A DNA stretch of 49,287 bases from Acidobacteria bacterium 13_1_40CM_65_14 (GTDB taxonomy: Bacteria; Acidobacteriota; Vicinamibacteria; Vicinamibacterales; CAVVIG01), in NCBI GenBank assembly GCA_001917905.1, contig MNEX01000101.1:1-49287 (forward strand). Direction: 5' to 3'. The notes beneath the pieces were generated by a model that had not been told where the DNA came from, searched no databases, and worked only from the letters and a program-made list of their open reading frames with translations. Of the stretch, positions 10,767 to 17,695 are shown piece after piece. The translations under genes were made by a program, and so were the position numbers. The stretch's first letter is position 1. Each line of letters starts with the position of its first letter.

Positions 10767-13400
<2,634 letters not shown>

Positions 13401-13473
13401 GACCTCAGTCTAGCGAGAAAAAGCGCCAACGGCCCGCGCGAGGCGCGAAGCCGCGGTATCCTCAATCCCACAC

Positions 13474-13641
13474 ATGGAGATCATCATCGTTCTCGCGTTG
13501 GCGGCGATCATCTTTGGGCCGCGGACGCTGTGGCGCATGCGCCGCCGCCGTCAAGGCCGGTCTGAGAAGGCATCGTCGGCTGCGTCCAAGCTCGGCACGG
13601 GCGGCCGGCGAGCAGTAAACCTTGACGTGGGGCACCCTTGA
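13474..13641 (+). CDS. Small TatA-like membrane protein (55 aa)
   Basis: Own reading: MEIIIVLALAAIIFGPRTLWRMRRRRQGRSEKASSAASKLGTGGRRAVNLDVGHP*; hydrophobic helix + FGP hinge + basic segment, as in TatA/B. Confidence 0.45.
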   Translation: MEIIIVLALAAIIFGPRTLWRMRRRRQGRSEKASSAASKLGTGGRRAVNLDVGHP

Positions 13642-13660
13642 GCGGTAAAAAGGGGGCCTT

Positions 13661-13768
13661 GTGATTGGTCAGTCGACCTGCATGTGTAGCTGCTGTTGTT
13701 GTTGCGGGCTCCCCACGAGCCCCTGCGCCAATGGTCCAGCCGCTTGCATGTCAATGATCACCACCTGA
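13661..13768 (+). CDS. Cys-rich leader peptide (putative attenuator uORF)
   Basis: GTG at 13661 preceded by AAAAAGGGGG: MIGQSTCMCSCCCCCGLPTSPCANGPAACMSMITT*; alternative ATG at 13682. A terminator hairpin follows. Confidence 0.7.
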   Translation: MIGQSTCMCSCCCCCGLPTSPCANGPAACMSMITT

Positions 13769-13796
13769 TCTAAACCAGCAGTCGACGGAGACCCAA

Positions 13797-13835
13797 GGCC
13801 CGGGAGGCTCATCAGCTTCCCGGGCCTTTTTGTTT
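13797..13835 (+). terminator. Intrinsic terminator / attenuator hairpin upstream of siroheme synthase
   Basis: GGCCCGGGAGGCT-CATC-AGCTTCCCGGGCC followed by TTTTTGTTTG. Confidence 0.88.
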
Positions 13836-13871
13836 GTACCTGTTTCTGGAGCGCGAGGCTTTAGCCGAGCG

Positions 13872-14591
13872 ATGAGCGAGTTGTTGCCGCTGTTCCTGAA
13901 CCTGACCGGACGAGACGTTCTCCTCGTCGGCGGCGGTCGTGTCGCCGAAGCGAAGCTGTGTCAATTGCTCGCGGCCGGCGCGCGCGTCCGGCTCGTCGCG
14001 CCGGTGATCGCGTCGACGATTCGGGATGTAGCGCGGGGCTTTCAGCCCCGCGATCGCGGCCCTGAAAGGGCCGCGCCACAAGTCGACATCCTCGAGCGCG
14101 GCTTCGAGGCGGCGGATCTCGACGGCGCGTGGCTCGTGGTCGCGGCCGCGACGCCGGAGGTGAATCGGGCGGTCGCCGATGCCGCAGAGACACGACGCGT
14201 GTTCGTGAACGCGGTCGACGATCCCGCGAACGCGACCGCGTTCTTGAGCGGCGTGGTCCGGCGCGACGGCGTGACGCTGGCGATCTCGACGAGCGGAGAC
14301 GCGCCAGCGCTCACGGCGCTGCTCCGAGAGAGTCTCGACGCCGTCCTGCCGCGCGACCTCGCCGTGTGGGTGAACACCGCGCGCGATCAGCGGATCGCGT
14401 GGCGTCGCGAGGCTGTACCGATGGAGGCGCGCAAGCCGCTGCTGTTACGCGCGCTCAACCACCTCTATAAAGCAACAGCGGAGAACGCTGAGCACGCGGA
14501 AGAGCCTCTCTCTGCGCTTTCCGCGCGCCCGGCGAGTGATCGTGATCCGAGCGTGCCTTGGCTGAGTGGACCGGAGGATTCGTGGTTATGA
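13872..14591 (+). CDS. Precorrin-2 dehydrogenase/sirohydrochlorin ferrochelatase (siroheme synthase N-domain)
   Basis: LPLFLNLTGRDVLLVGGGRVAEAKLCQLLAAGARVRLVAP...NAVDDPANATAFLSGVVRRDGVTLAISTSGDAPAL. Confidence 0.93.
   Translation: MSELLPLFLNLTGRDVLLVGGGRVAEAKLCQLLAAGARVRLVAPVIASTIRDVARGFQPRDRGPERAAPQVDILERGFEAADLDGAWLVVAAATPEVNRAVADAAETRRVFVNAVDDPANATAFLSGVVRRDGVTLAISTSGDAPALTALLRESLDAVLPRDLAVWVNTARDQRIAWRREAVPMEARKPLLLRALNHLYKATAENAEHAEEPLSALSARPASDRDPSVPWLSGPEDSWL
14027..14080. repeat. 54-bp double-palindrome element inserted in-frame in the siroheme synthase gene
   Basis: TGTAGCGCGGGGCTTTCAGCCCCGCGATCGCGGCCCTGAAAGGGCCGCGCCACA; ends TGTAGCGC / GCGCCACA; encodes VARGFQPRDRGPERAAPQ within otherwise conserved sequence. 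Confidence 0.85.
14474..14530. repeat. Tandem-armed hairpin in the C-terminal coding end of the siroheme synthase gene
   Basis: AGCGGAGAACGCTGAGCACGCGGAAGAG..CTCTCTCTGCGCTTTCCGCG, same unit type as 4809-4859. Confidence 0.7.
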
Positions 14592-15475
14592 CAGGACATG
14601 TCTCACTCGTCGGCGCCGGACCCGGCGACCCCGGTCTGCTGACGCGTAAAGCGATCGCGCGGTTGCGTGCGGCCGACCTCGTGCTGTACGACGCGCTCGT
14701 CGACGAGGGCGTGCTGCGCTACGCGCGGCGCGCGCAGAAATTCTTCGTCGGCAAACGCGGCGCCCGCGGCCCGCGCGAGGAGAGCGAGTCTTCGAGCGCC
14801 GCAGCGCGAGCGAGCGGGGGTGGGGCCCCGCGAGCAGTGAAGGAAGCCCACGCGATGACGCAAGAGGCGATTCACGCGCTGATGATTCGAGCCGCGCGCA
14901 AGGGACGCCGCGTCGTGCGGCTGAAGGGCGGTGATCCGTTTGTGTTCGGGCGCGGAGGCGAGGAAGCGCTCGCCCTGCGGCACGCCGGCGTGCCGTACGA
15001 CGTCGTGCCCGGCGTGACCAGCGCCGTCGCGGCTCCGGCGTCCGCTGGCATTCCGGTCACCCACCGCGGTCTCTCGTCCGCGTTCCTCGTCGTCTCCGCG
15101 CACGAAATGCAAGCGTTCGCGACGGCCATCGGTCAACTCCAACCGAACGGCATCACCGTGGTCGTGCTGATGGGGCTCGGCCGCTCAGCGGACATCGCCA
15201 GCCTGCTCATCGATCGCGGCTGGTCGCGCGGCACACCGTCGGCGGTCATCGTCGACGGCACGCGGCCCGAACAGCAGGTGTGGCGCGGCACGCTCGACGA
15301 TCTCGCCGCGGATCGCGTAGACATCGAATCGAACGGCGCTGGAACGATCGTCATCGGAAATGTCGTGGCGCTGGGTCTCGAGGAGGCGTCTGGCGCGGTG
15401 CCACGTTTTGTTCAGGATACGCGCGAGCGCTACGGCGCGAGCGCGTCAGCGAGCGTGGCTGCGGCTCGGCAGTGA
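14588..15475 (+). CDS. cobA: Uroporphyrinogen-III C-methyltransferase
   Basis: VSLVGAGPGDPGLLTRKAIARLRAADLVLYDALV...RVVRLKGGDPFVFGRGGEEALAL...VTSAVAAPASAGIPVTHRG. Confidence 0.95.
   Translation: MTGHVSLVGAGPGDPGLLTRKAIARLRAADLVLYDALVDEGVLRYARRAQKFFVGKRGARGPREESESSSAAARASGGGAPRAVKEAHAMTQEAIHALMIRAARKGRRVVRLKGGDPFVFGRGGEEALALRHAGVPYDVVPGVTSAVAAPASAGIPVTHRGLSSAFLVVSAHEMQAFATAIGQLQPNGITVVVLMGLGRSADIASLLIDRGWSRGTPSAVIVDGTRPEQQVWRGTLDDLAADRVDIESNGAGTIVIGNVVALGLEEASGAVPRFVQDTRERYGASASASVAAARQ
14761..14846 (+). repeat. Interspersed element, copy D, in-frame inside cobA
   Basis: ...GCGAGCGAGCGGGGGTGGGGCCCCGCGAGCAGTGAAG; encodes ARGPREESESSSAAARASGGGAPRAVKE between FFVGKRG and AHAMTQEAIHALM. Confidence 0.8.
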
Positions 15476-15553
15476 CGCTCTGTTCTGGATACGCGCGAGC
15501 GCAGCGGCGCGAGCGCGTCAGCGAGTGGGGGTGGGGCCCCACGAGGATAAGAC
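15402..15553 (+). repeat. Interspersed element, two adjacent copies (B1 15402-15475, B2 15473-15553)
   Basis: CGTTTTGTTCAGGATACGCGCGAGCGCTACGGCGCGAGCGCGTCAGCGAG... and GCTCTGTTCTGGATACGCGCGAGCGCAGCGGCGCGAGCGCGTCAGCGAGTGGGGGTGGGGCCCC. Confidence 0.9.
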
Positions 15554-15554
15554 A

Positions 15555-17390
15555 ATGTCAGTTGCAGACGATCCCAAAACGTTCGGCCGGACCCGGCTCT
15601 CGTTCGCCAGCGTCGCCGACATCGACGAGTTCGTCACGACGCTCGATCGGTTCGAGCGCGGCGAGCTGACGCCGGATCAGTGGCGCGCGTTCCGTCTCGT
15701 GCGCGGGACGTACGGCCAGCGCCAGACCGACGATGCTCAGATGCTGCGCGTGAAAATCCCGCAGGGCATCCTGACGGCGGAGCAGCTGGAAGCGCTCGCC
15801 GAGGTCGGCGAGCGCTATTCGCGCGGCTTCGGCCACATCACCACCCGCCAGAACGTGCAGTTCCACTTCGTCAAGCTGCACGACGTGGAGCACGCGATGC
15901 ACCGGCTCGCCGACGCAGGTCTGACGACCCGCGAAGCGTGCGGCAACTCGGTTCGCAACATCACGGCCTGTCACTATGCCGGCGTCGCATCGGATGAACG
16001 GTTCGACGTCACGCCGTACGCCGAGGCGCTCACGCGGTATCTCCTGCGGCATCCGCTCAGCTCGACGCTGCCGCGCAAGTTCAAGATCGCGTTCGAAGGC
16101 TGCGCCACGGATCACGTCTACACCGGCATCAACGACCTCGGGTTCCGTGCGGTGCTGGGCGCCGACGGCGCGCGCGGCTTCCGCGTGACGGCTGGCGGCG
16201 GGACCGCGATCATGGTGAAGTCGGCCGGCCTGCTGCACGAGTTCCTGCCTGCGTCGGAAATCCTGCGCGCCGCCGAAGCGGTGCTCCGCGTCTTCCATCG
16301 CCTCGGCGACTACCAGCACAAGCAGCGCAACCGGATGAAGTTCCTGATCAAGACGCTCGGTTGGACGCGCTGGCGTGAGGAGTACGACCGCGAGCTGACG
16401 GCGTGCCGCCTGCGCGGCCAGGTGCCGACGCTCGACGTCGATCCGCCCGCGAGCGAATCGAGACCGGATTGGGTCAAGGATTCGTCGCCGTCGGTCGGCC
16501 ACATCGCGTCGCGCGTGTCTGCCGGTCGGGTGACTGGTCCGGGACTGACGCCGACCGTCGTGCCGATCTTCCACGCGGGCGACGAGGCGTACGCGCGGTG
16601 GCGATCGACCAACGCCCGGCCGCAGAAGCAGTTCGGCTACATCGTGGTGGTCGCCACTGTTCCGCTCGGCGATCTCACGAGCGAGCAGATGCGCGTCGTC
16701 GGCGAGCTGTCGCGCGCGTACGGCGACGGCACGGTCCGCGTCACGATCGATCAGAATCTCGTGTTCCGGTGGGTGAATGCGTGCGACGCGCGGCAATTCT
16801 ATCGACGCCTCGCGGCCGCCGGACTCGGACTCGCCGAGGCGGGCAGTATCGCCGACGTCGCGAGCTGCCCGGGCGCGGAATCCTGCCGGCTCGCGGTCAC
16901 GCAATCGCGCGGTCTCGGCCGGCTGCTCGAGGATCATCTGCGCGCGCGGCCCGATCTCATCGCGGCCGCCGATGGCGCGCGCATCAAGATCAGCGGTTGC
17001 CCGAACGGCTGCGGTCAGCATCACATTGCGACGATCGGCTTCCAGGGCAGCGTGCGCCGCCTCGGATCGCGTGCCGTGCCGCAGTACTTCGTCATGGTCG
17101 GCGGCGGCGCCACCGACACGGGCGCCACGTTCGGCCGGCTCGCGGCGAAGATTCCGGTTCGGCGGATTCCGGAGGCGCTCGAGCGCCTCATCGATCTCTA
17201 CGACCGCGATCGCAGCGACGGCGAATCGGCGACGGCGTTCTTCGCGCGCGTCGATCTCGAGGTGGTCAAGGCGCGGCTCGCCGACCTCGAGCGGCTCCAG
17301 CCGGGCGACGCGGTGCCGGCCGATTTCATCGATCTGGCCGAAGCGAATGACTTCGCGCCCGAAATCATGGAAGGGGAATGCTCCGCCTGA
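15555..17390 (+). CDS. Nitrite/sulfite reductase (siroheme/4Fe-4S)
   Basis: HITTRQNVQFHFVKL, NSVRNITACHYAG, VASCPGAESCRLAVTQSRGL, KISGCPNGCGQHHIATIGFQGS. Confidence 0.95.
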   Translation: MSVADDPKTFGRTRLSFASVADIDEFVTTLDRFERGELTPDQWRAFRLVRGTYGQRQTDDAQMLRVKIPQGILTAEQLEALAEVGERYSRGFGHITTRQNVQFHFVKLHDVEHAMHRLADAGLTTREACGNSVRNITACHYAGVASDERFDVTPYAEALTRYLLRHPLSSTLPRKFKIAFEGCATDHVYTGINDLGFRAVLGADGARGFRVTAGGGTAIMVKSAGLLHEFLPASEILRAAEAVLRVFHRLGDYQHKQRNRMKFLIKTLGWTRWREEYDRELTACRLRGQVPTLDVDPPASESRPDWVKDSSPSVGHIASRVSAGRVTGPGLTPTVVPIFHAGDEAYARWRSTNARPQKQFGYIVVVATVPLGDLTSEQMRVVGELSRAYGDGTVRVTIDQNLVFRWVNACDARQFYRRLAAAGLGLAEAGSIADVASCPGAESCRLAVTQSRGLGRLLEDHLRARPDLIAAADGARIKISGCPNGCGQHHIATIGFQGSVRRLGSRAVPQYFVMVGGGATDTGATFGRLAAKIPVRRIPEALERLIDLYDRDRSDGESATAFFARVDLEVVKARLADLERLQPGDAVPADFIDLAEANDFAPEIMEGECSA

Positions 17391-17460: not shown

Positions 17461-17537
17461 AATCCATGTATCTCCATTTATCGATTTGACTTGGAGCGTG
17501 CGCGTCCGATATAGTCCGCGGGACAACTGAATACGCA

Positions 17538-17695
17538 CTTCATCCAGAGTGGCTGAGGGACAGGCCCTGTGACGCCACGGCAACCACGCGACCGCCAGGT
17601 CGCGGTTTAGGTGCCAATTCCAACCTTCAGCGCCGGCTCAATGCCGGCGTTCAAGCGCCGGCTCAATGCCGGCCTTCGAAGAAGGACAGATGAGG
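17538..17695 (+). ncRNA. SAM-I (S-box) riboswitch
   Basis: CTTCATCCAGAGTGGCTGAGGGACAGGCCCTGTGACGCCACGGCAACC...TTTAGGTGCCAATTCCAACC...GATGAGG; P1 CTTCATC/GATGAGG; upstream of homoserine dehydrogenase. Confidence 0.92.

Follow-up and report, generated by a model that had tools for sequence, protein, structure and literature searches.

The window, the 49,287 nt stretch of DNA analysed here, lies on a contig from a host genome of 6.33 Mb that is 87% complete. An operon of three genes is found on its forward strand. The first encodes a siroheme synthase N-terminal domain protein (CysG-N, precorrin-2 dehydrogenase; 13872..14591), which scores over the cut-off for TIGR01470 and also matches PF13241. 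It is followed by a uroporphyrinogen-III C-methyltransferase (SUMT; 14558..15475; TIGR01469 over cut-off) and a nitrite/sulfite reductase (NIR/SIR) hemoprotein (15495..17390; PF01077, PF03460). A preliminary description of this DNA had named these genes siroheme synthase, cobA and sulfite reductase, and the family matches agree, with the substrate of the reductase taken from context. Among solved structures, the hemoprotein is nearest to NirA-type nitrite reductases and to M. tuberculosis NirA (1zj8). Its sequence leaves sulfite versus nitrite unsettled, and we infer from the context that it is a sulfite reductase. Two repeats lie near the start of the operon, namely a GC-rich inverted-repeat insert within the siroheme synthase reading frame (14023-14085) and a short repeat, GCGCGAGGCTTTAGCCGAGCGA, 5′ of the siroheme synthase start (13847-13875), with further copies elsewhere in the genome and in relatives. 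A SAM (S-box) riboswitch above the Rfam gathering score follows the reductase gene (17537-17647, forward strand), and genes for homoserine dehydrogenase and threonine synthase lie 3′ of it. The methionine/threonine branch adjoining the reductase gene has, in this riboswitch, an RNA sensor different from the leader described below. The only other Rfam match elsewhere in the window was a tRNA, and the Rfam covariance models gave no significant family, T-box or other, at 13400-14100.

A short ORF precedes the operon on the same strand. It runs from a GTG at 13661 to a TGA at 13766-13768 (13661..13768, 35 codons) and its translation is MIGQSTCMCSCCCCCGLPTSPCANGPAACMSMITT. Residues 7-15 include 7 Cys, encoded by TGC ATG TGT AGC TGC TGT TGT TGT TGC (13679..13705). 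The preliminary description had reported this ORF with its 7 Cys in 9 residues, which direct reading of the sequence bears out, and the Cys run is kept in relatives. The ORF is preceded by a sigma-70-type promoter (13622..13651, forward strand) with a −35 box TTGACG (13622-13627), an 18 nt spacer and a −10 box TAAAAA (13646-13651). The arrangement is common to most leaders of the order, in which a TTGAC box is found 16-19 nt from a TAnnnn hexamer. A convincing promoter was not seen in three leaders (L053, L094, L095). In the window, 9 nt separate the −10 box from the GTG. Among the leaders with a scorable promoter, the first in-frame ATG/GTG/TTG falls mostly 6-14 nt 3′ of the −10 box, and most often 8-10 nt. 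Transcription starts about 7 nt 3′ of a −10 hexamer, so the predicted 5′ UTR is 0-8 nt long and a Shine-Dalgarno sequence has no room. Judged by this spacing, the leader uORF is probably leaderless or nearly so, as in mycobacteria. The purine stretch AAAAAGGGGG had been put forward as ribosome-binding context. It overlaps the conserved −10 box and is not conserved as GGAGG, and a Shine-Dalgarno start was rejected. Acidobacteria are documented to have leaderless genes, which make up 13.3% on average (PMC3160421).

An intrinsic terminator (13795..13837, forward strand) stands between the ORF and the operon. It consists of a 15 bp hairpin (13795-13828; −29.9 kcal/mol) and a U-tract, TTTTTGTTT, and compensatory changes in the hairpin are present in the family alignment. 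The earlier claim of a terminator with a T-run after the ORF is correct in substance; the stem is 15 bp, not 13, and the gap from the uORF stop is 26 nt, not 28. The median gap over the leaders is 27 nt. Folding and a permutation test (see below) define three further RNA regions on this strand. Region 1 (13693..13711) comprises the 3′ Cys codons and GGGCTC, and pairs with region 2. Region 2 (GAGCCCCTGCGCCAATGGTC; 13717..13736) has two alternative partners, region 1 and region 3. Region 3 (GACCCAAGGCCCGGGAGGCTC; 13790..13810) is both the antiterminator partner of region 2 and the 5′ arm of the terminator. The Cys codons sit in region 1 of a classical 1:2 / 2:3 / 3:4 switch. In the window the 2:3 antiterminator has 16 bp (−25.5 kcal/mol) and takes most of the paired bases of the terminator 5′ arm, and an antiterminator region spanning this arm is present in every leader of a siroheme/sulfite reductase (sir) operon. 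The last Cys of the cluster lies 33-69 nt 5′ of the stop in the leaders counted. Thus, the ORF always spans region 2, which an unstalled ribosome would cross.

A run of TGY triplets is common in the genome of the window and alone would mean little. Four TGY triplets followed by TGA gave 25 matches in that genome, versus 33 for a reversed-pattern control, and whole-genome pattern searches of this kind are mostly noise in coding DNA, good for leads only. A scan of both strands of the window for the conjunction of a Cys-rich ORF, a stop and a terminator resulted in a single match, and other TGY-rich strand-bases of the same genome (152 kb) gave none. The same scan of 311 kb from relatives gave two matches, both of them leaders of the Cys-run type. 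A chance ORF was ruled out by the conservation together with these scan controls. Neither a second Cys-run leader nor a CysD match was found in the window's own genome (87% complete).

When 60 relatives were searched at the DNA level, the leader turned up in the window's family. We also scanned, with regard to strand, the 5′ regions of siroheme synthase homologues across the order (60 loci including the window). A Cys uORF with a terminator precedes the siroheme/sulfite reductase operon at 32 of these 60 loci: 19/25 in the window's family (f1), 3/13 in f2, 1/1 in f6, 2/7 in f8, 3/3 in f10, 3/4 in f15 and 1/1 in f14, where the single leader (L095) is doubtful. The preliminary description would have counted loss of the Cys run in orthologous leaders against its reading. 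The leader peptides diverge (e.g., MGHSTCMCSCCCCGL, VSTGFCSCCCCCCAAA, VFKMCGCACACCRGT, VLTGRRGCCPCCCAAS), yet the run is kept. Its pattern varies (CACCC, CCCCC, CCACSCC) and the flanking residues are not conserved across families. In L039 the frame changes after the Cys run and the switch is intact. The scan detected no leader at about half of the order's sir operons, for which a different operon order, a promoter elsewhere or real loss are possible explanations. No leader was found 5′ of siroheme synthase in 14 Acidobacteriota sampled outside the order.

The control strands gave a single match, L094 (G035:C145), which is antisense to a siroheme synthase leader. Its leader, VSLIWSVASGCPCCRTCQYGPARAALAT, is divergent, has a promoter and a terminator, and lies 5′ of a gene reading MSHSALDTPTTRGTSLIDQIGNTPLVRLRRF..., which by its sequence (translated by eye) appears to be a cysteine synthase. 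The match is probably a true leader, and G035 may carry two cysteine attenuators back to back. Most of the named relatives that share the operon are Acidobacteria MAGs; several bear the label “gp6” (subdivision 6), and one relative is labelled Chloroflexi. In the Chloroflexi-labelled MAG (L033, VBJP01000004.1) the operon is 73% identical, its leader has 4 Cys and the terminator is similar; either a mis-binned contig or a transfer would account for it.

The module is not restricted to siroheme and sulfite reductase genes. Its presence in relatives 5′ of sulfur-assimilation genes had been suggested as a check on the attenuator reading, and it was found at cysD, cysteine synthase and sulfate-binding protein genes. 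A Cys uORF with a terminator precedes the cysD operon at 11 of the 17 loci above the family cut-off, versus 0 on the control strand. In two of these 11, G004 and G020, the leader is followed by a gene resembling a TauE-type sulfur-compound transporter and then by cysD. Cysteine synthase lies 3′ of a leader in G003 and G028, and divergently in G035. In G005 the genes after a leader encode a porin-like protein and a sulfate-binding protein (TIGR00971 over cut-off), and in G015 a leader lies directly 5′ of SUMT and the reductase. Cys-run leaders with terminators were also observed 5′ of a TlpA/redoxin-like gene in G008, G022 and G026 (L184, L187 and L023). The next gene encodes a peroxiredoxin in G008 and G022, of the 1-Cys type in L184 and L187. 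The names transporter, porin, TlpA and peroxiredoxin come from sequence recognition. A further leader, L186 (G005:C175:17500-20100; MFAAAVRACCCAGSSSGSISLRTREAVAL), has a promoter and a terminator and precedes a gene with no assigned function. A strict scan of 30 cysK loci gave no leaders; the same scan missed the visible leader of G003 and is therefore not exhaustive. We rejected a general control of cysK in the window's family, where G003 alone shows such a leader; G028 and the divergent G035 come from other families.

The preliminary description had called for RNA folding in search of an anti-terminator, and a pairing that competes with the terminator is present and specific to each leader. 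For 49 leaders, we computed the pairing of every region 2 with the region 3 core of its own leader and with permuted cores. The mean energy of the 2:3 pairing was −25.6 kcal/mol for a leader's own core versus −21.7 kcal/mol for permuted cores (sd 0.43; 0/5000 permutations). For the 1:2 pairing the values were −23.3 and −21.1 (sd 0.46; 0/3000; 49 leaders). The complementarity of the antiterminator is leader-specific, and as permutation keeps some relatedness, co-evolution is supported but unproven. Within the alignment of the window's family there was no signal of antiterminator covariation, because region 3 is nearly invariant there. MFE folding of the stalled state discriminated poorly, with 40/49 real leaders versus 63% of shuffles passing a 60% threshold. 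In the window, the occupancy of the antiterminator before region 4 has been transcribed drops from 0.73 to 0.20 when region 1 is freed. Region 1 by itself is not enough to abolish the 2:3 pairing in most leaders, so movement of the ribosome through region 2 would have to do so. Codon choice in the Cys clusters is distinctive as well. The clusters of the 49 leaders hold 149 TGT and 95 TGC, compared to 6 and 36 in ten ORFs of the window (Fisher p 1.6e−8, an optimistic value as the leaders are related and not independent). TGT is thus in excess in the leaders although genes in these GC-rich genomes prefer TGC (6:36 in the window). The synonymous choice of the regulatory codon affects the sensitivity of an attenuator (PMC1183508).

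The ORF, promoter, terminator, pairings, conservation and regulon computed here lead us to regard the module as a cysteine-responsive, ribosome-mediated transcription attenuator, with a probability of roughly 0.86; leaderless initiation, stalling at the Cys codons, the cysteine response and the resulting read-through are what we infer. The cysteine attenuator of the preliminary description is supported in this form by the conservation, the other cysteine-pathway loci and the antiterminator. Transcription would start just 5′ of the GTG of the (nearly) leaderless uORF. With ample Cys-tRNA, the ribosome would pass the Cys codons and region 2 and reach the stop about 26 nt 5′ of the terminator. 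The 2:3 pairing would be removed or pre-empted, the 3:4 terminator would form and transcription would end. When Cys-tRNA is scarce, a ribosome stalled in the Cys run would mask region 1. Region 2 could then pair with region 3, no terminator would form, and RNA polymerase would enter the siroheme/sulfite reductase operon. The distances in the leaders fit ribosome control. As the median stop lies 27 nt 5′ of the terminator, a ribosome at the stop should disrupt the 2:3 pairing and not mask the terminator.

The leaders could instead act in a cysteine-responsive manner at translation or at Rho-dependent termination, as proposed for mycobacterial leaders, with the hairpin incidental. The uORF in Acidobacteriota looks leaderless as it does in mycobacteria, where Cys-run leaders are without terminators (PMC1262725) and have been classed as translation attenuation (PMC13236596). 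An incidental hairpin is improbable, however, as every leader counted has a strong T-tailed hairpin at a near-constant distance from the uORF stop and region 2 matches the terminator 5′ arm of its own leader. The terminator often ends only a few nt 5′ of the gene, so the ribosome-binding site of that gene may be affected as well.

The remaining alternatives give the peptide itself a function. Copper-responsive uORFs exist, e.g., CruR (PMC9426467), and some of the leaders precede TlpA/peroxiredoxin genes, both of which would suit a Cys-rich nascent peptide acting as the sensor (a metal- or thiol-responsive arrest peptide) in place of tRNA-Cys charging. The spacing and number of Cys vary among the leaders, their flanking residues are not conserved across families, and the frame change in L039 leaves the switch intact. 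The strong TGT bias points to decoding, and the genes downstream are mainly cysteine-pathway genes. We consider a nascent-peptide sensor quite unlikely, somewhat more so than an incidental hairpin. The least probable reading, and a very unlikely one, is that the ORF encodes a small Cys-rich protein with a function of its own, whose transcript is merely ended by the terminator. Such a gene would have its own promoter and terminator, as this ORF does. Across families it is the mutually exclusive RNA pairing that is conserved and not the peptide outside the Cys run, and synteny with cysteine-pathway operons likewise speaks against it.

Cysteine leaders are known from other bacteria. Canestrari (2020) reportedly showed that leaderless polycysteine sORFs are cysteine-responsive attenuators in mycobacteria. 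A 2005 study had predicted cysteine leader peptides that have no terminator in actinobacteria (PMC1262725), mycobacterial cysteine leaders were noted by ribosome profiling (PMC4633059), and the study of the polycysteine attenuators, described as translation attenuation in PMC13236596, is also cited in PMC9094748. The Acidobacteriota leaders share with these a run of Cys codons in a predicted leaderless uORF 5′ of sulfur/cysteine genes, and a regulon of several operons. They come from a different phylum and differ in having a conserved intrinsic terminator and antiterminator, where the mycobacterial leaders are without a terminator. The position of the Cys run also differs. It is near the stop in mycobacteria, whereas here it lies 33-69 nt 5′ of the stop and the ORF extends across region 2.

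Transcription attenuation by cysteine codons is not new in principle, as a case upstream of cysS was already predicted in Rhodobacterales (PMC8632094). In that case, the uORFC-8-2 motif, a leader with a terminator is predicted to carry two tandem Cys codons (positions 14-15) 5′ of the tRNA synthetase gene cysS. As in the leaders described here, its Cys codons lie within the first stem, an intrinsic terminator follows, and ribosome-mediated transcription attenuation on tRNA-Cys charging has been proposed. The present leaders differ in having mostly 4-7 Cys, a (near-)leaderless start and a position before biosynthetic and sulfate-assimilation operons in Acidobacteriota. The module also resembles the trp/his/leu attenuators, with regulatory codons in region 1, the 1:2, 2:3 and 3:4 helices, and a terminator 5′ of a biosynthetic operon. 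As in the trp/his type, the downstream genes make the regulatory amino acid (siroheme/SUMT/NIR-SIR, cysD, cysteine synthase, sulfate-binding protein). Here, unlike in the trp/his/leu attenuators, the amino acid is cysteine and the uORF is predicted to be without a Shine-Dalgarno sequence. In addition, the stop lies 3′ of region 2, so that the antiterminator would be cleared by the very ribosome that translates the uORF. The novelty, judged against the open-licence papers searched, is a conserved biosynthetic regulon in Acidobacteriota that joins a (probably) leaderless uORF to the classical three-helix switch.

The module extends cysteine-codon attenuation from mycobacteria, where it is translational, and from cysS in Rhodobacterales to a biosynthetic regulon with intrinsic terminators. 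The findings suggest that classical attenuation may be driven by leaderless translation, which could do so because a ribosome can load once the 5′ end of the transcript emerges. For Vicinamibacteria-type Acidobacteriota we see an even chance that the whole cysteine/sulfate-assimilation regulon (sulfate uptake, cysDN, siroheme/sulfite reductase, cysteine synthase and some thiol-redox genes) is under cis-acting leaderless cysteine-codon transcription attenuators, which would replace a dedicated sulfur regulator protein. The Acidobacteriota module offers an explicit and testable mechanism together with its regulon.
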